This document shows, piece after piece, positions 3,180 through 17,920 of a stretch of 32,917 nt of DNA. This DNA is from Myxococcota bacterium. GTDB lineage: Bacteria; Myxococcota_A; Polyangia; HGW-17. Positions within the stretch are counted from its first letter, which is position 1. Each line of letters starts with the position of its first letter. The stretch covers positions 1-32,917 of the forward strand of contig JAHJMN010000204.1 in NCBI GenBank assembly GCA_018821305.1, read 5' to 3'. The position numbers were made by a program, and so were the translations under genes. The notes under the pieces were generated by a model. The model was not told where the DNA came from. It made no database searches and saw only the letters and a list, made by a program, of their open reading frames with translations.

Positions 3180-4016
3180 TTACCCTATAAGGTTTAATGC
3201 TACCTGTGGCATTTGATTCGCCTGAGCAAGCACACTTACCCCTGCCTGCATTAAAATATTATTCCTCGCCATATCTGCTGTTTCGCTTGCTACATCAATG
3301 TCTCTTATCTGAGAGTTTGCACTTGAGAGATTTTCTTTGTAACTGGCAAGATTGGCTACGGTTATTTGAAGTCTATTCTGAACGCTTCCTAGTTTTGATC
3401 TCTGAGTGCTTATGTCTGTAATTGCAGCATCAACATTTGAAATCGCACTTAATGCTTTTGTTACAGTAGACACGCTCAGGGCGCTGAGCATTGTTGCCCC
3501 ACCGATTGCTGATGCTCCCATACTGGCCAGCGAAACAGCTATCTTGTCATTTGCAGTGGCATTTATACCAACCTGGAAAGTAATATTGGTCTCACTGCCA
3601 TCTACAAGTTTGTGTCCATTAAATTCTGTAACATCAACTATGCGGTCAACTTCGGACTTCAATGAATTAAATTCATCATTTAAAAACAGTCTGTCCTGAT
3701 TTGTATAAGTTCCGTTCGCACTTTGAATGGAAAGCTCTCTGAGTCTATCCATAATTCCATGAAGTTCGTTTAAAGCTCCATCTGCTGTTTGAATGAGGGA
3801 AATTCCGTCATTTGCATTTCGCTGCGCCTGGTCAAGGGACCTTATCTGCGCTTTCATTTTCTCTGAAATAGCCAACCCAGCTGCATCATCTGCAGCACTA
3901 CGTACTCGATATCCGCTGGATAATTTCGACATATTATCCTTGAGAGCTAACTGTGTTTTTGACAGTGTTCTTTGAGCGTTAAGCGCACTTACGTTGGTTC
4001 TGATTGATATGGACAT
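3180..4016 (-). CDS. Flagellin D
   Basis: A complete 278-aa flagellin with only the D0/D1 helical core. It carries the usual SADDAAGLAISEKMKAQ segment and ends MPQVALNLIG. An ATG ten codons upstream is rejected because the conserved AAGGAAGGGAC ribosome-binding region lies between it and the MSISIRTN start at 4016. It differs from B and C at residues such as LRELSIQSANGTYTNQD. It sits in the middle of the array, with a 481-bp gap upstream that should hold its promoter. Confidence 0.96.
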   Translation of the reverse strand: MSISIRTNVSALNAQRTLSKTQLALKDNMSKLSSGYRVRSAADDAAGLAISEKMKAQIRSLDQAQRNANDGISLIQTADGALNELHGIMDRLRELSIQSANGTYTNQDRLFLNDEFNSLKSEVDRIVDVTEFNGHKLVDGSETNITFQVGINATANDKIAVSLASMGASAIGGATMLSALSVSTVTKALSAISNVDAAITDISTQRSKLGSVQNRLQITVANLASYKENLSSANSQIRDIDVASETADMARNNILMQAGVSVLAQANQMPQVALNLIG

Positions 4017-4497
4017 ACTGTCCCTTCCTTCCTGCTTGAAAATCAAACATTAATATTATTAAAACTTTCGCTATCATTCTCTTTCATCAAACAACCTTCT
4101 TTTATGGTTTAGAGGACGCAGAAATCCTGTTGTGACTAAAGTCATCCTCTATATTCTAAAACATATTTTTTTCTACCAATATGTTTTCTTTACCTTTTTA
4201 CGATCACACTTATATATAATTCTTTCATGTACCTATCATAAAACAGATACTTTCATGTTTCACTAATTTATCAACCTTCCTGTCTCATCACTGAAACAGT
4301 TTGTAGTTGAATACTACACCTTTGGGTTCCTGCATTTCTCAAAGCATGGATTTTTAGAAAATCCTGCAAGGAACCTTTTTTTAATAGAGCACACTCATTT
4401 ATTGTCCTTAACTGAAAATTAGCGAAAACTCTAAAATCAGTTAATTCAGGACAAAAACTTTTGGCTCTCATGGACATCCATTACGGAAGTCGCTTTT
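4017..4497. other. 481-bp gap between flagellins E and D
   Basis: I see no supported gene; a 68-codon frame at 4271-4477 lacks a ribosome-binding site. The gap holds the flagellin D leader hairpin, a perfect TGACTAAAGTCA palindrome at 4133-4144, and an AT-rich inverted repeat, AAAACATATT / AATATGTTTT, at 4158-4187. The palindromes could be operator or 3'-end structures; neither has a proper T-tract. A GAATGATAG sequence lies about 60 nt before both the flagellin C and D starts and may be a shared promoter element. Confidence 0.5.
4034..4048 (-). promoter_or_regulatory. Leader hairpin upstream of flagellin D
   Basis: The minus strand reads GTTTGA, loop TTT, TCAAGC, a 6-bp stem with one G-U pair, ending 17 nt before the ATG and followed by AGGAAGGAAGGGAC. 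Confidence 0.45.
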
Positions 4498-5343
4498 TTA
4501 TCCAATCAGATTAAGAGCTACCTGTTGAATCTGATTGGCTTGAGCTAAAACACTTGTTCCAGCTTGCATCAGTATATTATTTTTAGCCATATCAGCCGTT
4601 TCGCTTGCCACATCAACATCTCTTATCTGAGAGTTAGCACTTGAAAGATTTTCACGGTAACTCGCCAGATTTGAAACAGTTACCTGGAGCCTGTTTTGTG
4701 AAGCGCCAAGTTTTGATCTCTGGGACGAAATAGTACTGATTGCTCCATCCACAACATCGATGGCCTGAAGAGCTTTACTTACAGTACTGACACTTATGGC
4801 ATCAAGATATGTTGAAGCCGAAGCTCCTAGCCTGCTTGCATGCATATCAAGAATTGACACTTTAATTACATCTGTAGGGCTATTATTTATTCCAACCTGG
4901 AAACTAATCCCAGAATTTTTACTTCCGTTGAGAAGTTTATGACTATTGAATTCCGTAACATCAACAATCCGGTTTACTTCATTAATCATTTCTTTAACTT
5001 CGTTATTTATGAACACGCGATCCGAGTCTGTATAAGTACCGTTGGCGCTTTGGATCCCCAACTCTCTCAGTCGGTCCATAATTCCGTGAAGTTCATTGAG
5101 AGCTCCATCTGCTGTTTGAATCAATGAAATGCCGTCATTTGCATTTCTTTCAGCCTGCTGAAGACTTCGTATTTGAGCCTTCATTTTTTCAGATATTGCA
5201 AGTCCAGCTGCATCATCTGCAGCACTTCGTACACGATATCCCGAAGCGAGTTTCGATAGATTTTCCTTAAGAGATCCCTGTGTTTTAGCCAGAGTCCTCT
5301 GAGCATTCATAGACGACAGATTTGTTCTAATTGATAGTGACAT
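4498..5343 (-). CDS. Flagellin E
   Basis: A complete 281-aa flagellin, beginning MSLSIRTNLSSMNAQRT and ending IQQVALNLIG. The start at 5343 follows GGGAGGAATATC and matches the paralogues; the frame continues 38 codons upstream but overlaps another ORF and contains the ribosome-binding site. It differs clearly from A to D in the central segment (for example SRLGASASTYL), so it is an older branch. It follows an unusual Ser/Gly-rich locus by 16 bp, and its leader hairpin lies inside the end of that upstream ORF, which could couple the two translationally. Confidence 0.96.
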   Translation of the reverse strand: MSLSIRTNLSSMNAQRTLAKTQGSLKENLSKLASGYRVRSAADDAAGLAISEKMKAQIRSLQQAERNANDGISLIQTADGALNELHGIMDRLRELGIQSANGTYTDSDRVFINNEVKEMINEVNRIVDVTEFNSHKLLNGSKNSGISFQVGINNSPTDVIKVSILDMHASRLGASASTYLDAISVSTVSKALQAIDVVDGAISTISSQRSKLGASQNRLQVTVSNLASYRENLSSANSQIRDVDVASETADMAKNNILMQAGTSVLAQANQIQQVALNLIG

Positions 5344-5359
5344 GATATTCCTCCCTGGA

Positions 5360-5872
5360 TTACCAATGTACCGATGCAAACGGTACAGGTTTTTCCGCGT
5401 CCATGCGGAACATATTATTATGTCTGCGTGCTTTTGTTTCCATGCAGACTTTTTCATTAACCATAACTACAAAAAGTGAACTGGCTGTGATCATATCCAT
5501 GCGATCACCTTGTCCATAACTGGACATTTCGCTGCCCGATGATGGGGTAAAACCTCCGGAGGAAGATCCTCCTGAATCATTGCTGGAACTACTACTACCA
5601 CTATGTCCATCATCATCTTCATCATCTATTATATTAAACATAACCTGTTGTTCACTTTCAGTATCTTCTTTTTCTCTCATCTTCCATATGAGTTCATTAA
5701 CCGTAATCTTCTCAAGTTTGCTGCGTTTCCCCGTAATGATATCGGGAACCGTTGTCCAGACCGGATTTTCCTGTAAATTTCCGTCGGTCTGCATTTGTAT
5801 ATTTTCAATACCCGGAGAAACTCCGCTTGTTTTATTCGGACTTTCGGTCCTGATTTTGTCCTTCCTGGACAT
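5360..5872 (-). CDS. Ser/Gly/Asp-rich 170-aa protein upstream of flagellin E
   Basis: No family recognised. The product begins MSRKDKIRTESPNK, has an acidic run (DDEDDDG) near residue 85, then a Ser/Gly-rich linker, and ends in a hydrophobic/basic tail with MITASSLFVVMVNEK. The residue mix looks like real coding. However, the ATG at 5872 has only a modest GAGG site and lies inside another frame that starts at 5985 with a much better ribosome-binding site. The likely readings are two overlapping genes, or one roughly 208-aa gene needing a -1 shift near 5875-5890. The last codons contain the flagellin E leader hairpin. Confidence 0.5.
   Translation of the reverse strand: MSRKDKIRTESPNKTSGVSPGIENIQMQTDGNLQENPVWTTVPDIITGKRSKLEKITVNELIWKMREKEDTESEQQVMFNIIDDEDDDGHSGSSSSSNDSGGSSSGGFTPSSGSEMSSYGQGDRMDMITASSLFVVMVNEKVCMETKARRHNNMFRMDAEKPVPFASVHW
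5368..5386 (-). promoter_or_regulatory. Leader hairpin upstream of flagellin E, inside the preceding ORF
   Basis: The minus strand reads GTACCG, loop TTTGCAT, CGGTAC, a perfect 6-bp stem ending 24 nt before the flagellin E ATG. It overlaps the last codons of the 170-aa ORF, so ribosomes finishing that ORF would melt it. Confidence 0.55.
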
Positions 5873-5985
5873 GGCGCATCCTCGCTTTTCTCAGAGTACT
5901 GAGGTTCAGGATTTTCGAAAAACTGCGTCGCTTCAATATAATCAGGCAATTTTTCCTTTTTCTTATCCTGGTATTCACACCACAT
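5677..5985 (-). CDS. Alternative upstream frame of the same locus
   Basis: This frame starts MWCEYQDKKKEKLPDY with AAAAGGAG eight bases before the ATG, the best initiation signal of the locus. Its first 38 or so residues look like protein (acidic/aromatic, EATQFFENPEPQ). After about position 5875 it becomes Arg-rich and looks out of frame, while the overlapping frame takes over. I read it as the true 5' part of one gene continued in the -1 frame, either by programmed slippage (an AAAA run at the ACA-AAA codons is a candidate), by reinitiation at 5872, or because of an indel. No slippery heptamer is clear-cut. Confidence 0.35.
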   Translation of the reverse strand: MWCEYQDKKKEKLPDYIEATQFFENPEPQYSEKSEDAPCPGRTKSGPKVRIKQAEFLRVLKIYKCRPTEIYRKIRSGQRFPISLRGNAANLRRLRLMNSYGR

Positions 5986-6026
5986 TACTCTGTCTCCTTT
6001 TAAGTAGATCCGTATTTAACACTCAT

Positions 6027-6043
6027 CTGCTTTTTCAAAGCAG
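6027..6043. promoter_or_regulatory. Inverted repeat upstream of the split locus
   Basis: CTGCTTT and AAAGCAG form a perfect 7-bp stem with a 3-nt loop, 41 nt before the ATG at 5985. There is no T-tract, so it is more likely a leader or 3'-end structure than a terminator. Confidence 0.4.
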
Positions 6044-6171
6044 GAGAATCAAATCATGGACACACTTCAAAGTATTTGTTAATACAGACACTCGTACTGT
6101 TCAATTCAGACAACAGTGCTGTACTTTTTATTAAGCCACTAATCCGATTACACTTCAGTTATCAACTCAAA

Positions 6172-7017
6172 CTACCCCTGAAGGAGATTGAGAGCTACCT
6201 GAGGCATCTGATTAGCCTGACTTAATACGCTGATACCAGCCTGTTGCAGAATCTGATACCTTGCCATCTCTGCACTTTCCGCAGCAACATCAACGTCTCT
6301 AATCTGACTGTTGGCACTGGAAAGATTTTCAGAGTAACTAGCAAGGTTATTTATTGTGACCTGCAGTCTATTCTGGGTTGCACCAAGTTTGGAACGAATT
6401 TTTGAAATGTCGGTGATCGATGCATCAATAACATCAAGGCTCTGGAGAGCTTTGGTAACGGTAGAGATGCTTGCAGTATTGAGAAAAGATGTACCGGTTC
6501 CAAGAGTAGATGCTCTTACACCGGCTATGGATACGACAAGTCTGTCGTTGGGGTCATTATTGATACCCACCTGGAAACCGAGTCCCGCACTGACACTGCC
6601 ATCAAGCAGATTTGTGGAGTTAAATTCTGTGACCTGAGCAATACGGTCGATTTCAGTGATGAGTTGATTGAATTCATCATTCAGGAAATTACGATCCTGA
6701 TCAACGAGGGTACCGTTAGCGCTCTGGATGGCAAGTTCTCTTAGCCTGTCCATAATACTGTGACACTCGTTGAGAGCACCTTCTGCTGTCTGGATGAGGG
6801 AAATCGCATCATTAGAGTTCCTTCGAGCCTGATCCAGAGAGCGAATTTGAGCTTTCATTTTCTCGGAAATGGCGAGTCCGGCTGCATCATCTGCAGCACT
6901 GCGTACTCGAAGTCCGCTTGAAAGCTTTGAAAGGGTATTTTCAAGTGCTTTTTGGGTTTGTCCCAGAGTCCTCTGGGCGTTCATAGATGGTAGATTGGTT
7001 CTGATTGATATAGCCAT
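6172..7017 (-). CDS. Flagellin F (divergent, first of the array)
   Basis: A complete 281-aa flagellin and the most divergent of the six: it starts MAISIRTNLPSMNAQRT and ends with the more widespread form MARYQILQQAGISVLSQAN then ALNLLQG, where the others have MARNNILMQAG and ALNLIG. The start at 7017 follows GGAGGAAAGAACC; an upstream in-frame ATG at 7134 is rejected because it lies beside the promoter and would put the leader hairpins into coding sequence. A sigma-28-like promoter lies about 120 bp upstream, so it is probably a late flagellar gene and may head the cluster. Confidence 0.97.
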   Translation of the reverse strand: MAISIRTNLPSMNAQRTLGQTQKALENTLSKLSSGLRVRSAADDAAGLAISEKMKAQIRSLDQARRNSNDAISLIQTAEGALNECHSIMDRLRELAIQSANGTLVDQDRNFLNDEFNQLITEIDRIAQVTEFNSTNLLDGSVSAGLGFQVGINNDPNDRLVVSIAGVRASTLGTGTSFLNTASISTVTKALQSLDVIDASITDISKIRSKLGATQNRLQVTINNLASYSENLSSANSQIRDVDVAAESAEMARYQILQQAGISVLSQANQMPQVALNLLQG

Positions 7018-7038
7018 GGTTCTTTCCTCCGTGAAAGT

Positions 7039-7069
7039 CAGCTCAATGAGCTGTGGGCTTACTTGCCCA
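7039..7069 (-). promoter_or_regulatory. Two adjacent leader hairpins upstream of flagellin F
   Basis: On the minus strand the proximal stem is CAGCTC, loop ATT, GAGCTG (7039-7053), ending 21 nt before the ATG. The distal one is TGGGC, loop AAGTAA, GCCCA (7054-7069). Both are perfect and abut one another. The proximal one occupies the position seen in the other five flagellin leaders. Confidence 0.55.
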
Positions 7070-7140
7070 GTGTCGGCTAAACGACGGTTGTTATTAACTT
7101 TTTTTATCTCTGTGTGGAACTTCCTGTCCCACAAACACAG

Positions 7141-7387: not shown

Positions 7388-10300
7388 ATGGATAAAAAAA
7401 ATCTATCAACCAAAGGCCAGTCTCTTTGTGCTGGTTTTGTTACTTTTTTTTCGCAGTTGGTATTGCTCAGGCAGGTTTTTTCTTTTCTTGACACAAGCGA
7501 GCTAAACGTTGGAATTTTTTATTTTTCCTGGCTTTCGTTCATGGCAACTGGTGCTCTAATATTAAAGAAAGGCTCATCACAACTACTACTTTCCGTACAA
7601 ATCCTTTTTACCTCACTGGCCTTTTTTACTTCCACCTGGTTGTTTGATTTCTTAATGAATTCAGGAAGTAACACTACAAATTTAAGTCAGTTATCAATTT
7701 TTCAATCTATTATTTTAATTATTACAACAATAAGCGTACCTGCGTTCTTTGCAGGAAGTGCCATTGTTTCTATTAAAGATAAACCATTTTCAATTATTTC
7801 TTTTGAAGCTGCTGGAAGTCTACTGGCCGGAATTCTTTTTTCGCTTGGAGGAGCTGCCTTTCTATCAACAAAAACACTTTTGTTGTTTATATTGATACCT
7901 TCCGGTCTGTTTTTTATCCTTCTTTCCACAATAAACATTAAAATCACAAAAATTTCGTTTATATCACTGACTGTACTGTTAAGTGCAGTCGTTTTCATAT
8001 TCTTCCTCAAATCACCACCACACGCTGTTTTCACAGGGAAATCGACTGTAACTTTTAAAAAATCTGCATCCGTTTCTGTTTATAATAATGGCAAATTTTC
8101 TTTCAGATGGCCTGATTCGAGCTATTTACCTCCAGCGGCTCTGGCAGATTATCTATCTTCTGACGGGCAAATCCACACTGCAGGCAATATTCCTATGGCT
8201 TTGGCTATCCATAACTGGCGTAAAAAATCGGTTATTTTATATGTATCAGAAAAAAAGACATCTTCAAAACTGGCTTCTCTTGCAGGTTTAACTACTTTCC
8301 CTGAATTAACCCTGTCTACCCCTTTCAAAATAAAAAAATCATCTCTGGTTATTCTGCCAACAGCACTTCCACTTACAGTTTTCGATAACAGATTTCTTAC
8401 ATCTGAAGCCTTTGATAACTGGAAGAAAATTATTGGTAAAGATGGGACAATAATGATGAGCGTCCCTGTACCGGGAACATGGATTTCAAAACCATGGATC
8501 ATGGCTGTTTCCACTCTTCTTTCTACAGTTAAATTACATTTTAAAAATCATGCATTTATAGATTGCGAGGGCACCTGGCTGGTTGTTTCAAACAGACAGA
8601 ATTTTGATAGTTTTTTGAAAGATGTACTTTCCAGAAATGAACTGAAAGGATATGCAGCCCTCAACACAACACTTGAACCTCAACTTTTACGGGCTCCAGT
8701 TTCAACTCAGGAAACCCCATTTCTTTACATTTATACCCGGGCGGCTTTTGATAACAGTTCTTTTTCGAAATTTATTGCCAGAGCGTCCTCAGGAACAGGA
8801 AAATCTTTCGTTTTTTACAAATCATCTTATTTTTCGTTTGCCATCGCCCTGCTTCTGCTGATTTTCATCTTTGTCGGCAGGAGAAGGAGTCTATCCAGAG
8901 AAAATGCCGAAGATTTTTCCATCGGAACCATGGTTTTTTTCGCATCTTGCTGGGCTATGGCACTTCAGATTGGGCTTCTTATAAATCTGCAGAGAGTCAG
9001 CGGAAATCTCATCGTAGATGCTGGTCTGATATCCGGACTTTTCATGTTATTTTTTGCCCTGGCTGCCCAGTTGGCAAAAAGAACGAGTTTTTCAAATATT
9101 TCAACGCCACTATGGGTCATGGCAATTTCCGGCTTTACCATAGTTATCATGTTTATTTTCAACTCAGCTTCCATCAATCTTTGGATTTCCGCTGCAATTA
9201 GCTCTGCAAGCGGTTTTCTGACAGGAGGCAGCGTTTCTTCTGCCTTAACAATTGACGACAGAAGGGGCACATCTCAGGTGTTCAGTTGGGATAACGCGGG
9301 TGCTGCATTTGGCTCCTTGATTGCAGGAACAATTCTAATCCAGATATCAGGTCCATCCCGGACTGTGTTAATTATGGGGATTCTTGCGGGCATCACAGCG
9401 ATTCCGACTTTCATCTCCTTTTTGGATACTGAAACACATCATCCGTTACGTTCCCGGACCTGGCCATGGCCGAGAACGTCTCTTATTCTGGCATTTGGAA
9501 CGATTTTCATTCTACTTGTCGCAACGGCAGGACGCGCTCCGGCACCAGCAACGGGAAGACAAAGAGCAGGCGAAAACTGGATAACAAAGCCTTTTTTACA
9601 TTGTATCTCAGAAAATAACGGAAATAAGTATCTGACTGTCGATTCAGGAGCATTTCCAGAAACATTGAAACTGAGAGGTTACGCTGGCCCAATCCGCATG
9701 AAACTTACATTTGATGAAAAAGGATCCATCATGGATATTCAGATTGGGGAAAACATTGAGACACCTTCTTTTATAAAAAAAATAACTCCCTGGGTTCAAA
9801 ATTTCAGGGGTAAGGGTCCCAAAGATGATCTTTATTCAAAAGAAACAGGTGTAGATACGGTTTCCGGTGCAACAATGTCCACAAAAACAATACGTGATAC
9901 TGTGGAGATAACCAGAGCAAAAGTTCTTGAATATTTGAACCTTGAGTATTCCGCTAAAAAAATTCAAAATGATAAATTTTCATTCAGAAGTTTATTTATC
10001 ATAGCTGGCCTTTTTACAATTGCTCTTTTCCTTTCGTTTCTCATGCAACATAAGTTACTCAGGCTGGCTTTTCTGGTTATAACCACCCTCACTCTTGGTT
10101 TTATATACAACTGGACAATATCAATAGTGGATGGCGGTTTATTTTTCCTCAATGCTATTCCCGGGCCTCCGGGAAGGCTTCTAATGGTAGGTGCGGCAAT
10201 TGCTATTGCCATTGCTGCGGGACCGCTTTGGTGCGGCATTCTGTGTCCTCTGGGTGCATTTCAAGAGTTAGTGTACACGACGGCTCATGCTTTCGCTCGC

Positions 10301-10729
10301 CTTGTGGGCCTTTACAAGGGACCTATCGTGAGTTCTACAGGTTTAAACAATGTAAAATCAATAATAACTACCCGAGCCTCTTTTCTGAAGTATGTAATCC
10401 TTGCCGCAGGAATAGTAATGCTTGCATTCACAGGAAATCAAAAATTTACAGATTGGGATCCACTCTCCTGGTTTTTCAGTTTTTCACTTACCCCATGGCG
10501 AATCATTGCCTATACTATGATCATAACAAGTTCACTGCTTTTATTTCGCCCTCACTGCCGCTTTATTTGCCCTGTGGGAGCTTTTTTCAGCCTTTTCAAT
10601 CATATTGCCCTGCTCTCTCGAAAACTCGGCATTCGCAAATATCCTGACTGTGATTACGGAGTAAAAGGTCCATCGGATATAACCTGTATCAGATGCCAGA
10701 GATGCTGCATTACAAAACAGAAAAAATAA
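7388..10729 (+). CDS. Membrane fusion: spermidine-synthase-like/MFS + FMN-binding + NosR/NapH-type 4Fe-4S protein
   Basis: A 1113-aa polytopic protein with three modules. Residues 1-700 resemble fused MFS/spermidine-synthase-like proteins: a helical block, a degenerate soluble Rossmann-like section (about 215-470), then more helices including WDNAGAAFGSLIAG. Residues 718-855 form an FMN-binding domain with DTVSGAT, whose Thr829 would carry FMN attached by an ApbE-type transferase. Residues 865-1113 are membrane helices with two CxxxCP motifs (C949/C953, C1057/C1061) and a C-terminal cysteine group (C1088, C1100, C1103, C1106, C1107), as in NosR, NapH and YccM. The role is inferred: electron transfer across the membrane to an outer flavin. 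The last ferredoxin motif looks shortened. The substrate is unknown, and I know of no described protein with this exact fusion. Confidence 0.8.
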   Translation: MDKKNLSTKGQSLCAGFVTFFSQLVLLRQVFSFLDTSELNVGIFYFSWLSFMATGALILKKGSSQLLLSVQILFTSLAFFTSTWLFDFLMNSGSNTTNLSQLSIFQSIILIITTISVPAFFAGSAIVSIKDKPFSIISFEAAGSLLAGILFSLGGAAFLSTKTLLLFILIPSGLFFILLSTINIKITKISFISLTVLLSAVVFIFFLKSPPHAVFTGKSTVTFKKSASVSVYNNGKFSFRWPDSSYLPPAALADYLSSDGQIHTAGNIPMALAIHNWRKKSVILYVSEKKTSSKLASLAGLTTFPELTLSTPFKIKKSSLVILPTALPLTVFDNRFLTSEAFDNWKKIIGKDGTIMMSVPVPGTWISKPWIMAVSTLLSTVKLHFKNHAFIDCEGTWLVVSNRQNFDSFLKDVLSRNELKGYAALNTTLEPQLLRAPVSTQETPFLYIYTRAAFDNSSFSKFIARASSGTGKSFVFYKSSYFSFAIALLLLIFIFVGRRRSLSRENAEDFSIGTMVFFASCWAMALQIGLLINLQRVSGNLIVDAGLISGLFMLFFALAAQLAKRTSFSNISTPLWVMAISGFTIVIMFIFNSASINLWISAAISSASGFLTGGSVSSALTIDDRRGTSQVFSWDNAGAAFGSLIAGTILIQISGPSRTVLIMGILAGITAIPTFISFLDTETHHPLRSRTWPWPRTSLILAFGTIFILLVATAGRAPAPATGRQRAGENWITKPFLHCISENNGNKYLTVDSGAFPETLKLRGYAGPIRMKLTFDEKGSIMDIQIGENIETPSFIKKITPWVQNFRGKGPKDDLYSKETGVDTVSGATMSTKTIRDTVEITRAKVLEYLNLEYSAKKIQNDKFSFRSLFIIAGLFTIALFLSFLMQHKLLRLAFLVITTLTLGFIYNWTISIVDGGLFFLNAIPGPPGRLLMVGAAIAIAIAAGPLWCGILCPLGAFQELVYTTAHAFARLVGLYKGPIVSSTGLNNVKSIITTRASFLKYVILAAGIVMLAFTGNQKFTDWDPLSWFFSFSLTPWRIIAYTMIITSSLLLFRPHCRFICPVGAFFSLFNHIALLSRKLGIRKYPDCDYGVKGPSDITCIRCQRCCITKQKK

Positions 10730-10799
10730 ACAGACCTGAGCATTTTTTGCCAATTTATTCAATTGATATAATATTCTCTCAAAATCCGGAGGGATGAAC

Positions 10800-11369
10800 A
10801 TGACTTTTCTTTTTGCACTAATTCTGGCCGCCAACCCGGTATCAAAACCTGATAACGTATATATTGCCAAATATCAAGGAGTTGCACCTCCGTCCCCTCA
10901 ACTTCCAAAGATTTTACCTGCCCCGGGGGGGACATGCACCCTGTTGTGGCCAGGATTCCAGTCAAAACCTAAAAACGGTCCGAGCAGATTTTTCTTTCTT
11001 TTTACCGGAAAAATTACTCTTCAGTCCCAGTACCTGAAAGACAAAAAAATATCTTATCTTCGTCTCACAGTACCTAACTGTCAGGCATGGAAAAAAAATG
11101 CATGGCGTGATTTGATAACTCACTTTTTCTCTACTCCGGTGGAAAAAGTATCTTTTTTTACAAATGATAAAAAAACTGACCTCATAATTGATATTGAGTT
11201 TAAAAATGGGGCAGTAAAGCCGGAAATAAGCCATACCTTTTTTAACGGATACTATCTGCTTTTAGTCGAATTTCCTGCCATGAAGGACATCATTAAAACT
11301 CAAATTGTAAAAAAGGCACCAGAGCGGGGTAAAAAGACAGTAAAAAAAGCTATTAGAAAGAAAAAATAG
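10800..11369 (+). CDS. Small secreted protein, possible AMIN-like fold
   Basis: A 189-aa protein with an N-terminal signal-like segment (MTFLFALILAANPVSK), a proline-rich stretch, a globular middle rich in aromatic residues and a very basic tail (KKTVKKAIRKKK). I chose the ATG at 10800 because the GGAGGG ribosome-binding site directly abuts the earlier ATG at 10794, which is too close to use. The segment around VSFFTNDKKTDLIIDIEF vaguely resembles the AMIN domain of periplasmic cell-wall proteins; this is weak. It lies between the redox fusion gene and the YjbQ gene on the same strand and is probably cotranscribed with them. Confidence 0.75.
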   Translation: MTFLFALILAANPVSKPDNVYIAKYQGVAPPSPQLPKILPAPGGTCTLLWPGFQSKPKNGPSRFFFLFTGKITLQSQYLKDKKISYLRLTVPNCQAWKKNAWRDLITHFFSTPVEKVSFFTNDKKTDLIIDIEFKNGAVKPEISHTFFNGYYLLLVEFPAMKDIIKTQIVKKAPERGKKTVKKAIRKKK

Positions 11370-14020: not shown

Positions 14021-14395
14021 AATATGCTCCTGAGTAATTAGTTCTAAGTATTCAATAAAAACTTAAACTTTTGAAAATATTGATTTTACTTTGAATTTCT
14101 CAAAAATCCTTTTGTTCACAGAATAATTGAGACCCCCCAAGTTTTACCCGGAATTCCCTTTTTTAGAAACGAAAAAAAGAAAGTAAAATTGTTGTTATTT
14201 TTTATTAAAATAAATTTATCATGATCAGACCTGTCGATCTGTCGATATCTTTATTTAAGTTTTTGATTATCATTAAAGATTCGTATACAATGCCTGTCGA
14301 TAGAATGTCGATAAAAAAACATTCTCAGAGAGAAAATGTCTCGGTGCGGGAAAACTATCGACAGGTTACAAACAAAAATCAAAGGAAATGAACAA
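14021..14395. other. Divergent intergenic region upstream of dnaN, with iteron-like repeats
   Basis: This 375-bp AT-rich region separates dnaN (minus) from the zinc-ribbon/GYF/TPR gene (plus). It contains one DnaA-box-like TTGTTCACA (14112-14120), a long A/T-rich stretch around 14165-14220, and five TGTCGAT motifs between 14230 and 14365. Next to dnaN-recF it is a candidate replication origin or a regulator-binding region. Only one imperfect DnaA box is visible, which argues against a standard oriC. Confidence 0.5.
14230..14365. repeat. Five-copy CCTGTCGATA repeat cluster
   Basis: Copies: CCTGTCGAT at 14230-14238, directly abutting CTGTCGATA at 14239-14247; CCTGTCGATA at 14293-14302; ATGTCGATA at 14305-14313; and one inverted copy, ACTATCGACAGG, at 14354-14365. 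All share TGTCGAT. The inverted copy lies 30 bp before the start codon at 14396. I noticed no comparable cluster elsewhere in the window. Function unknown; likely protein-binding sites. Confidence 0.75.
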
Positions 14396-17300
14396 ATGAA
14401 AATATTATGTCCTCAATGTTCAAAATCTTTCGAAGGAGAACCACCGATAAACTGCCCGGGATGTGGAAAAACTATTTTCTCAGGCGATTTGAAAGGAAAT
14501 TTTTCCCTCGAAGGAGTGGCTCTTTTATATGTAAAAAGAGATAATGGCAAAGAATTTGGACCTTTTCCTGCTGAAAAAATAAAATCTTTAATAAAAATCG
14601 GAAAAATTACTGTTAATGAACTGGTATCTCAGGATAAAAATAAATGGCATAAATTATCTGATATTCCTGAAATTAAGGCAATAATGCCAGATGAAGTATC
14701 TGATAATAACAGTGATTTACCCGGTCTGAAAAGCGGAAGTGATTTACCTGGTCTGAAAAGCGGAAGTGATTTACCTGGTCTGAAAAGCAGCAGTGATTTA
14801 CCGGGTCTGAAAAGCAGCAGTGATTTACCGGGTCTGAAAAGCAGCTCTGGTCTTTCGCTTGATACTTCAGATGTGGAATTACCAGCAATAAAAAGAGCCC
14901 CCTCTTCCGATAATTTTCCCGGAATTAAAAGCAGTTTACCTGGTGTGAAAACAGGGAGTGATCTGCCTGGTGTTAAAAGCAATCTTCCTGGAGCAAAAAA
15001 CAGTGGAGACTTACCCGGAGTAAGATCTGATTTGCCTGGAGTAAATACATCTTTACCCGGAGTAAGATCCGATTTGCCCGGAGTAAATACATCTTTACCC
15101 GGAGTAAGATCTGATTTGCCTGGAGTAAATACATCTCTGGATTTAAACAGTGAAGATGAAAAAGAGAAAGAAAGGTTTACCTCCGGATTTCATATTCCCA
15201 CTGGCGAAAGCATTCAGTTACCTTCACAAGAGCTGGATCTTATTGATGTGGGGCAAACTGGCGAAAATAATGATTTTAGCCTGGATATGGATGAAAATCT
15301 TCTTTCAGATGGAGCAGATAACATACTTTCTTCTCTTGAAGAAATAAACAATGCTGAAAGTAACTCAACACCTGCAAAGTCTTTTTCTGAACAAGTTACT
15401 ATTCCACTCGAACAAGAAGATTCAGCCTCACCAACTTCGAGTTATTCGGAAATTTCCTCTCTGGAGCTGGATACGACATCGGCACCTGAATTTATTAAGA
15501 AGACGCCACTGTCAGAAAGAGAAGAATATTATGAAGAAGAAAAGTCCTCAAAACCCCTGCTTATTGGAGCTGGAATTTTAGGATTACTGATAATTTTCTT
15601 TATAATAGAATGGCTTTTCGGGTTCATCGGTATTTTGGGAACAGGGAAAAAAGAAAACAAAAAGCCACAGGTTGTTCAGAAAAATACTGTGGACAACAAT
15701 AAAAAGCCTGTAAGGAGGCATGCTGATAAATTTTATTTCGAGATGAACTATAAGAAGCTCGGTAATAAAACGAAAACTCCTGGATTACAAGGATGTGAAG
15801 CAGCTCTTCTAAATTTGATACATAACCACGATGACTCAGGATTAAATATATGTGCTCAATTTAAAAATACAACTGTTGAAGCAGCAGATGAACAAACAAT
15901 GCGTGTAAATACGCTGAAATTATTGATTCTGAGTAGTTTTTCTGGTGAAATTCATAAGAAAATTCATACAGAAAAAATAAAAGATCCATTGAAAAAGGCT
16001 GACACTATAATTACTCAGGCAATTTCAAGAAATCGAAAAAGTGCTTTATGGAACTATTATAATGCTCTGAAATTCTATATGGATAATAATTACAAAGATA
16101 TGCGGATATCAATAAATCAGGCCAGATCACAGGAATCTGGAAAGCATAGTGCCCTTGAATTTTATGCGGGTTTACTTGGAGAAAAAGAAGGGATAGAAAA
16201 TCTTTCCAGAATAAAAGGAATGGAGAGATATGCCAAAATACTTCCCAGTCTTTCAGCCTTGATTAAACAACAGATAGAACCTGAATTTTTACCACTCATA
16301 GACAAGAGTAAATTTAAAATATCGGAAATAAAAGAGATCATTAAAGATGATGCTCCTCCAGCCCTCAAAGCCTGGGAGCAGATCGTTGCAGCGTGGGATC
16401 AATGGATGGCGGGAAATCTTAAGAGAACATGGACCCACTGCAATAAAGCTTTGTTAAAAGACAAATTTATGACTCTGTCAGCTGAAATATGTGCCGGAAT
16501 ATGGGCTTGGCATGGGTTTTACGGAGATATTGAAGAAAAAATTTCCAACAATCCGATTCAGTTTAATGATTTTATTAAAATAAAAACATGGTTATCCGAC
16601 GGGAAAAGAGCCGCTGCAATGGCTGTGTGGGAAGAATATTCAAATAAAAAAGGGGAAAAATCACTTCCACTGCGAGCTTTTGTCAAAATAACATCCAGAG
16701 AACACTGGGAGGAAAAACTTGCTTTATCGTTTGAAAAATATGAATCTGCCACATGTAATTATATTCTGGAGGCAGCTCTAAGATATGGAAATACTGCCGG
16801 TGAGATTTCTAAATGGATTCAACAAAATATCAAAAATAAATCGGAAAATGTAAAATTATTGATAAAACTTATGGATATAATATCCGATTATACTTTTAAA
16901 AATATTGATAAACTTGAGCGAATATCAAAAGAATTTAAATTTGAGGTTAAAGGACCACTTATTCCATTTGTTGCAATGTTTGCCCTGTCTGCAAATGATA
17001 AAAGGGAATTGGATGAAAAAAGCATTCTTGATTCTTATGCTCTGAGTTATAAAATTTTAAAATTAACCCACTCTGGACAGCAAGAACAAGCCATAAAAAT
17101 AATTGAAAAAAACGGGAAAAAAATCAAGGATTCTGTATTTTTTGCATCTGCGGTAAGCGTCTGGCTGGATTCTCAGCATAAAGATAGAATTTCGAAAGCA
17201 CGTTTTATTGCTGATAGAGCAATAAGAATTCTTCCGGGAATAATGGATTCACATCCTGTTATCGGAAGACTATTTATTGAAAGTGGACAACATGAAACGG

Positions 17301-17920
17301 GAGAAAAAATATTTGAAAAAGCCGCTAACGCTGGACTTTTGAATGTGGAGGATTTTATGAAGTGGTCTGAATTAGAAATCAGATCAAAAAGGTATAAATC
17401 TGCTCTGGACGCTCTAGATCGTGGTTTGAAAAAATTTAAAGGCAACACAGATCTTCTTTTTGCAAAAGCTACATTATTTGTTGATCAGAGAAACCCGAGA
17501 AAAGCTGTCGAAACCCTGAATGAGATACCTGATAATTCTAAAGTTGCTGGCCTTAAATATATTTATCTTGGGAACAGTTATTTAAAACTTCGTCAAAAAC
17601 GAGAAGCGGAGAAAGCTTTTAGTAAAGCAATAAAACTGGCTCCGGATAGTGCGGAGCTGCATTTTAAATATGCAAAAATTCTGCTTGCAGATAACAAACT
17701 TTCCACGGCAATAAAACACTTTGAAAAAGCAATAAAAATTGCCGGGAAAGAAAATCACTCCTGGCTTTACGAAGCCCACAGGCTTGTGGGAGGGGCTTAT
17801 AAGGAAAAAGGCAATAAAGCAAAAGCTGTTTCTCATATTAAAAAATATGGAGAACTTGTTCCCGATGGTCCACTGAAACAGGAAGCTGTAAGACTTCTGC
17901 AATCTCTGGGTGTTTACTGA
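14396..17920 (+). CDS. Zinc-ribbon/GYF/LPG-repeat/TPR membrane protein
   Basis: A 1174-aa protein. It opens with MKILCPQC, a zinc ribbon using C5, C8, C20 and C23, followed by a GYF_2-type domain (about 41-97, with GPFPAEKIKSLIKIGKI). Residues 106-246 are a low-complexity array of LPG motifs encoded by near-identical DNA repeats, then an acidic linker, one membrane helix (about 387-413) and a long helical TPR-like region whose clearest repeats lie near the C-terminus (SYLKLRQKREAEKAFSKAI). The start at 14396 is preferred because AAAGGA precedes it and the zinc ribbon begins there. Architecture suggests a scaffold linking cytoplasmic recognition to an outer-face TPR surface. It heads the run that includes ksgA and tsaD. 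Confidence 0.85.
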   Translation: MKILCPQCSKSFEGEPPINCPGCGKTIFSGDLKGNFSLEGVALLYVKRDNGKEFGPFPAEKIKSLIKIGKITVNELVSQDKNKWHKLSDIPEIKAIMPDEVSDNNSDLPGLKSGSDLPGLKSGSDLPGLKSSSDLPGLKSSSDLPGLKSSSGLSLDTSDVELPAIKRAPSSDNFPGIKSSLPGVKTGSDLPGVKSNLPGAKNSGDLPGVRSDLPGVNTSLPGVRSDLPGVNTSLPGVRSDLPGVNTSLDLNSEDEKEKERFTSGFHIPTGESIQLPSQELDLIDVGQTGENNDFSLDMDENLLSDGADNILSSLEEINNAESNSTPAKSFSEQVTIPLEQEDSASPTSSYSEISSLELDTTSAPEFIKKTPLSEREEYYEEEKSSKPLLIGAGILGLLIIFFIIEWLFGFIGILGTGKKENKKPQVVQKNTVDNNKKPVRRHADKFYFEMNYKKLGNKTKTPGLQGCEAALLNLIHNHDDSGLNICAQFKNTTVEAADEQTMRVNTLKLLILSSFSGEIHKKIHTEKIKDPLKKADTIITQAISRNRKSALWNYYNALKFYMDNNYKDMRISINQARSQESGKHSALEFYAGLLGEKEGIENLSRIKGMERYAKILPSLSALIKQQIEPEFLPLIDKSKFKISEIKEIIKDDAPPALKAWEQIVAAWDQWMAGNLKRTWTHCNKALLKDKFMTLSAEICAGIWAWHGFYGDIEEKISNNPIQFNDFIKIKTWLSDGKRAAAMAVWEEYSNKKGEKSLPLRAFVKITSREHWEEKLALSFEKYESATCNYILEAALRYGNTAGEISKWIQQNIKNKSENVKLLIKLMDIISDYTFKNIDKLERISKEFKFEVKGPLIPFVAMFALSANDKRELDEKSILDSYALSYKILKLTHSGQQEQAIKIIEKNGKKIKDSVFFASAVSVWLDSQHKDRISKARFIADRAIRILPGIMDSHPVIGRLFIESGQHETGEKIFEKAANAGLLNVEDFMKWSELEIRSKRYKSALDALDRGLKKFKGNTDLLFAKATLFVDQRNPRKAVETLNEIPDNSKVAGLKYIYLGNSYLKLRQKREAEKAFSKAIKLAPDSAELHFKYAKILLADNKLSTAIKHFEKAIKIAGKENHSWLYEAHRLVGGAYKEKGNKAKAVSHIKKYGELVPDGPLKQEAVRLLQSLGVY
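14711..14845 (+). repeat. 27-bp coding tandem repeat, 5 copies
   Basis: Five consecutive 27-bp units encode SDLPGLKSG or SDLPGLKSS. The units differ by a few bases only, implying recent expansion by slippage or recombination. Confidence 0.9.
15011..15136 (+). repeat. 42-bp coding tandem repeat, 3 copies
   Basis: Three units of 42 bp encode alternating LPGVRSD and LPGVNTS. The third is slightly degenerate at its end. It is a second, independent expansion of the same LPG motif in the same protein. Confidence 0.9.

Follow-up and report, generated by a model that had tools for sequence, protein, structure and literature searches.

A spermidine-synthase-like membrane protein fused to a NosR/PceC-type flavin and iron-sulfur module, and its linkage to AmrS and an exported Memo-AMMECR1 protein

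The fusion gene and its modules

The window analysed here, a 32,917-nucleotide stretch from a Myxococcota bacterium, contains a gene that reads as one uninterrupted frame of 1113 codons and encodes two membrane halves, a Rossmann domain between them, an FMN-binding domain and a membrane iron-sulfur module (Table 1). Several flagellin genes lie in a row upstream (3180-7134, minus strand), as they do in genome G001 (L032). The fusion is followed by a 191-aa protein without a Pfam match (10794-11369, plus strand), whose G001 counterpart occupies the same place (L032:3426-3971) and adjoins a UPF0047 gene; further downstream lies a 1194-aa GYF/TPR protein carrying a run of near-identical SDLPGLKS repeats (14336-17920, plus strand).

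Table 1. Features of the fusion gene, in window coordinates
Feature	Position	Strand	Basis or remark
Whole fusion gene	7388..10729	+	1113 aa, ATG start; ORF and homologues
N-terminal membrane half, residues 1-208	7388..8011	+	Seven predicted TM helices, PRK03612/MFS-SpdSyn type
Degenerate spermidine-synthase-like Rossmann domain, residues 209-467	8012..8788	+	SpeE profile match, motif table, topology; predicted extracytoplasmic
Second membrane half, residues 468-714	8789..9529	+	Eight predicted TM helices; PRK03612 match 508-684
FMN_bind domain, residues 764-840	9677..9907	+	Pfam PF04205, RnfG profile match; predicted extracytoplasmic
Candidate ApbE flavinylation motif DTVSGAT, residues 823-829	9854..9874	+	Consensus from PMC12052999
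NosR/NapH/PceC-type membrane iron-sulfur module, residues 864-1113	9977..10726	+	Pfam Fer4_5, weak NosR/NapH matches, hydropathy
First CX3CP (CGILCP), residue 949	10232..10249	+	Predicted at cytoplasmic face
Second CX3CP (CRFICP), residue 1057	10556..10573	+	Predicted at cytoplasmic face
C-terminal CX11CX2CX2C, reduced ferredoxin site	10649..10705	+	Four invariant cysteines: C1088, C1100, C1103, C1106

Pfam recognizes the C-terminal part directly, with FMN_bind (2.6e-11) and Fer4_5 (9.9e-11, in two stretches) all above their cut-offs. The N-terminal ~700 residues, searched alone, gave zero Pfam matches, and in NCBIfam this half reaches only a weak PRK03612 match of 16.6 bits against a cut-off of 472, failing the spermidine synthase model. 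A leave-one-out HMM, built from distant homologues with the window and its family-level relatives excluded, nevertheless finds it at 85.8 bits (E=4e-28). Similarly, a PDB search with the window protein alone returned just marginal FMN matches, and a family profile then resolved the modules, matching solved structures of spermidine synthases (5e-19) and RnfG (2e-13). An AlphaFold model built from nine sequences was of low confidence (mean pLDDT 52), and no claim made here rests on it; Foldseek found nothing below E 1e-3 for this model, the best hits being SAM-methyltransferase and SpeE folds. The N-terminal membrane half (residues 1-208) is drawn from hydropathy over 11 homologues and the leave-one-out HMM, and this model too has seven helices there. 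Pfam, the leave-one-out HMM and the family profile thus agree with the first-pass annotation, which had read an FMN-attachment motif and CX3CP pairs fused to a spermidine-synthase-like membrane protein.

That the three-part fusion is real is confirmed: the same domain order recurs in several phyla, and the family alignment shows no variation at the cysteines or at many Gly/Ala/Pro positions, which argues against chance. An assembly chimera was rejected, since unrelated genomes carry the identical architecture, as was a transcription regulator, the name of the NosR model being historical.

The iron-sulfur module falls far below the curated models of its best-known relatives, scoring 28.5 bits against a cut-off of 1000 bits for NosR (NF046105) and 20.6 bits against 213 bits for NapH/MauN (TIGR02163), and its tail carries four cysteines rather than two 4Fe-4S motifs. 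As had been proposed from the sequence, the ferredoxin part is cut down relative to NapH: CX11CX2CX2C would be enough for one cluster, compared with two in NosR and NapH. The DTVSGAT motif fits the ApbE consensus Dxx[ST]GA[ST] (PMC12052999), which together with an FMN_bind match over its cut-off marks the protein as a probable flavinylated FMN_bind protein. The ApbE gene that the annotation suggested looking for is indeed present in the window's own genome (G000:C158), although this is not specific, as the genome has other FMN_bind matches. The motif, whose absence from homologues would have counted against the fusion reading, is not universal: the planctomycete members L045 and L051 lack the flavinylation Asp, and a single-half protein from Thermodesulfovibrio (L052) lacks the motif.

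Predicted topology and loss of the synthase active site

Hydropathy averaged over 11 fusions places seven helices before the Rossmann domain and eight between it and the FMN domain, with the CX3CP helices last. The short even-numbered (cytoplasmic) loops average at least 1.7 K+R and the short odd-numbered (outer) loops at most 1.6, the exception being a 3-residue gap before a doubtful last hydropathy peak. This pattern suggests that the Rossmann and FMN domains lie outside and that both CX3CP motifs and the tail cysteines lie inside. Placement of the Rossmann and FMN domains on the same side follows independently of the charge rule, from the even number of helices (eight) between them. The FMN domain is also outside in NosR and PceC, experimentally so for PceC (PMC5928378).

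The ordinary membrane SpeE-like (PRK03612-type) proteins of relatives (L307, L308, L310, L311, L313) have seven helices with positive loops on the N-terminal side. A SAM enzyme is expected on the cytoplasmic side, and the charge rule also puts the spermidine synthase domain of these proteins outside, implying either that the rule alone is not decisive or that those proteins are unusual.

The window copy has AGNIPMA in place of the glycine-rich SAM loop and LPTALP in the catalytic Asp region, and it no longer has the acidic SAM residue. Calling the Rossmann domain degenerate was therefore correct for the window's lineage, in which the SAM and catalytic motifs are lost. Across the family motif table, both catalytic Asp residues are kept only in L045 and most members lack at least one motif residue; a Spermine_synth Pfam match is found in L046, L048 and L045. 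The loss of these residues implies that aminopropyl transfer is not the conserved function; the invariant cysteines, by contrast, persist throughout.

Gene neighbourhoods, partners and distribution

In six outside genomes (L045, L046, L047, L048, L051, L053), the fusion adjoins the AmmeMemoRadiSam radical-SAM enzyme (AmrS) and an exported Memo-AMMECR1 protein of ~515-547 aa. In the four of these clusters that were scanned against NCBIfam, AmrS scores 371-395 bits (cut-off 220); the other protein is recognised both as AmmeMemoRadiSam protein B (Memo) and as protein A (AMMECR1). The two halves of the fusion also occur apart. An FMN/NosR protein lacking the spermidine-synthase-type part adjoins AmrS and Memo-AMMECR1 in Thermodesulfovibrio (L052), and the FMN/NosR half alone adjoins AmrS in L065. 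A spermidine-synthase-type protein lacking the FMN/NosR half adjoins both partners in planctomycetes (G077, G096, G117, G110, G123, G087) and in G039, from the window's class; in G049, at a contig end, such a gene lies ~200 bp from the AmrS gene. The single halves beside AmrS thus amount to eight further genomes for the spermidine-synthase type and two for FMN/NosR, nearly always with Memo-AMMECR1 also there. That each half keeps the same partners when separate is stronger evidence of linkage than the fusion alone, and we regard the linkage of the membrane protein to AmrS and exported Memo-AMMECR1 as well supported. A module boundary in relatives, which the first-pass annotation had named as grounds for refutation, does literally exist, since the halves occur apart and in one genus lie in different frames; because both separate halves keep the same partners, it does not undo the fusion reading.

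The window's own genome (G000) holds AmrS, Memo and AMMECR1, with the fusion, AmrS and Memo-AMMECR1 on different contigs (C22, C122 and C209) rather than adjacent. Its cluster-type AmrS (C122, L143:8668-9642; L133 in the AmrS tree) falls in a 24-row clade with 92/88 support that includes all the cluster-linked enzymes. Its Memo-AMMECR1 (C209, L197:5688-7241) is a lipoprotein whose N-terminus, MFKNIFFIFIVTLVLAGC, is a lipoprotein signal with the lipobox LAGC. This protein keeps the LRGCIG motif of AMMECR1, and when aligned to human MEMO1 it has His, His and Cys at the positions of H49, H81 and C244, which in MEMO1 bind iron or copper; MEMO1 itself has no known enzymatic activity (PMC11081632). 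Besides these, the genome encodes another Memo (C3), which is unexported, and another AmrS-like radical-SAM enzyme (G000:C160, L144:2149-3162), whose clade is distinct and is represented across the order.

Each of the 12 order-level relatives searched has some or all of the C-terminal half, with in-frame fusions in G003, G010 and G012, and in G005, where contig ends cut the gene. In a scan of named genomes, the three-part protein appears in a Planctomycetota MAG, Phycisphaerales, Sedimentisphaerales, Lentisphaerae, Sedimenticola and a tubeworm endosymbiont; in that collection the order relatives are labelled Deltaproteobacteria or Myxococcota MAGs. The fusion, whose recurrence had been put forward as a check, therefore recurs in Planctomycetota, Lentisphaerae and gammaproteobacterial symbionts as well as across the window's order. 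In L046, the long N-terminus was set aside as an ORF-calling artefact.

The different frames are found in two species of genus g5, in which the FMN/NosR half is in the -1 frame relative to the spermidine-synthase-type half, with an A10 run at the junction (L041:2714, L040:5044; also L044, L049). Neither locus, at 66-68% GC, has any other run of at least 8 A; the flanks of the A10 run have diverged, and the transmembrane anchor of the FMN domain is situated before it. This arrangement suggests programmed transcriptional slippage or -1 frameshifting, which would yield both a short and a fused protein. L037 (G009) also changes frame, downstream of a stretch of N in its contig, and this case was not read as biological.

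Co-occurrence extends the linkage beyond adjacency. Among 59 relatives, 15 have both a spermidine-synthase-type protein and exported Memo-AMMECR1, 4 have the former only, 2 the latter only and 38 neither (Fisher p 1.1e-8; this count, like those that follow, is uncorrected for phylogeny). The four genomes with only the spermidine-synthase-type protein are at most 84% complete; the two in which that protein was not detected are G016 and G043. In the class of L053 (81 genomes), a long Memo-AMMECR1 is present in 8/8 genomes with the spermidine-synthase-type protein versus at most ~4/73 others, judged in the latter by frame length. Within the window's order, AmrS of the cognate clade is found in 7/9 genomes with the Rossmann part versus 0/4 without it (p 0.02); G001, G004, G006 and G007 lack the Rossmann part, cognate-clade AmrS and the exported partners and retain the FMN/NosR half, as complete genes in G001 and G006 and as partial genes at contig ends in G004 and G007. 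The N-terminus is hydrophobic in most of the complete fused Memo-AMMECR1 proteins and bears a lipobox in many; this is generally not so for standalone Memo proteins. Separate genes encode Memo and AMMECR1 in G010, G008 and G011, and both products start with signal-like segments. AmrS has no evident export signal and is taken as cytoplasmic.

Interpretation and relation to known systems

We think it about an even bet (probability roughly 0.5) that the fusion belongs to an exported AmmeMemoRadiSam variant as its membrane component, acting as electron conduit and scaffold for the exported Memo-AMMECR1 metalloprotein. As to the chemistry and the direction in which electrons flow, our inference is this. 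Electrons would enter through the iron-sulfur sites on the cytoplasmic side, or be drawn from quinol in the membrane, and would cross to a covalently bound FMN on the outer side, much as they do in NosR and PceC; the FMN would then pass them to Memo-AMMECR1. The outward spermidine-synthase-like domain would be a docking or substrate-handling scaffold rather than an aminopropyltransferase. Of the new quinone- or periplasm-linked electron-transfer system originally proposed, trans-membrane electron transfer is supported; a free-standing quinone pathway cannot be read from the fusion alone, the constant partners being the radical-SAM enzyme and exported Memo-AMMECR1. Many spermidine-synthase-type members lack the FMN/NosR half, implying that the system either works at times without electron delivery or receives its electrons from another source. 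More tentatively, the family could represent an unrecognised envelope redox pathway, with the radical-SAM enzyme inside the cell and a Memo-AMMECR1 metalloenzyme exported to the outside; the membrane protein linking the two would have an outward spermidine-synthase-like domain turned partner-binding module, and a covalent flavin that feeds electrons to the outer enzyme.

The persistence of the FMN/NosR half in the four order relatives that lack the Rossmann part and the exported partners would fit a NosR/PceC-like protein that supplies electrons to some unrelated reductase in the periplasm, or a metal reductase of the CcoG type, with the spermidine-synthase-type half a mere anchor and the AmmeMemoRadiSam link incidental; FMN_bind/CX3CP proteins elsewhere do serve N2O and halide reductases, and homologues show weak CcoG matches. 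We consider this unlikely, given that each half separately adjoins AmrS, usually with Memo-AMMECR1, in several phyla, and that no reductase gene common to the neighbourhoods examined was seen. Equally doubtful is a transporter, in which the spermidine-synthase-type half would move a small molecule made with AmrS and the FMN/FeS half would power or complete a step outside: the two homologous multi-helix halves do resemble fused MFS/SpdSyn proteins, and with AmrS cytoplasmic and Memo-AMMECR1 exported something may have to cross, but transport alone leaves the outer Rossmann domain unexplained and the poor AlphaFold model yields no MFS match of weight. A working cytoplasmic membrane aminopropyltransferase, fused by happenstance to a redox module, is very improbable despite the Spermine_synth matches and the intact Asp pair of L045, in view of the lost motifs and the even helix spacing that puts the Rossmann domain outside.

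Each component has known relatives. The fusion resembles NosR, the electron donor to N2O reductase, in its predicted outer covalent-FMN domain, its membrane helices with two CX3CP motifs and its predicted cytoplasmic cysteine tail, and differs in having one four-Cys set there, in the two spermidine-synthase-type membrane halves and Rossmann domain that precede, and in the lack of nos genes in the neighbourhoods examined. PceC/RdhC, the C subunit of reductive dehalogenases, shares the FMN motif and two CX3CP motifs; PceC has no C-terminal Fe-S motifs, whereas the fusion keeps its four-Cys tail, and no dehalogenase was seen. PRK03612 and the fused MFS-spermidine synthase (NF037959) are the family's best NCBIfam matches and likewise have a seven-helix membrane half followed by a spermidine synthase domain, but scores are far under the PRK03612 cut-off, the fusion has an extra membrane half and the redox module, and the window's active site is lost. 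Finally, the curated AmmeMemoRadiSam models (TIGR04335, TIGR04336, TIGR04337) recognise the AmrS and Memo/AMMECR1 partners above their cut-offs; here, however, Memo and AMMECR1 usually form one fused protein that leaves the cytoplasm as a lipoprotein or secreted protein, a spermidine-synthase-type and FMN/NosR membrane partner is added, and a separate ordinary Memo is often in the same genome.

Our literature search, from which subscription journals were largely absent, found nothing combining spermidine synthase, FMN-binding and NosR and a single mention of AmmeMemoRadiSam in each of five papers; the main text of two flavinylation surveys and of an ApbE review mentions neither Memo nor spermidine synthase. 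AmmeMemoRadiSam, NosR/PceC modules and membrane spermidine synthase proteins are each known, and the literature covered here yielded no description of an exported system that brings them together with a dedicated membrane redox partner.

Conservation of Memo extends from prokaryotes to humans, and MEMO1 is studied in cancer, yet we know of no molecular function for Memo or AMMECR1. An exported Memo-AMMECR1 with a fixed radical-SAM partner and a built-in electron-transfer protein offers a concrete, testable setting for Memo. The system would add a new client class for ApbE flavinylation, and it suggests that Memo-AMMECR1 chemistry needs electrons and names their donor.
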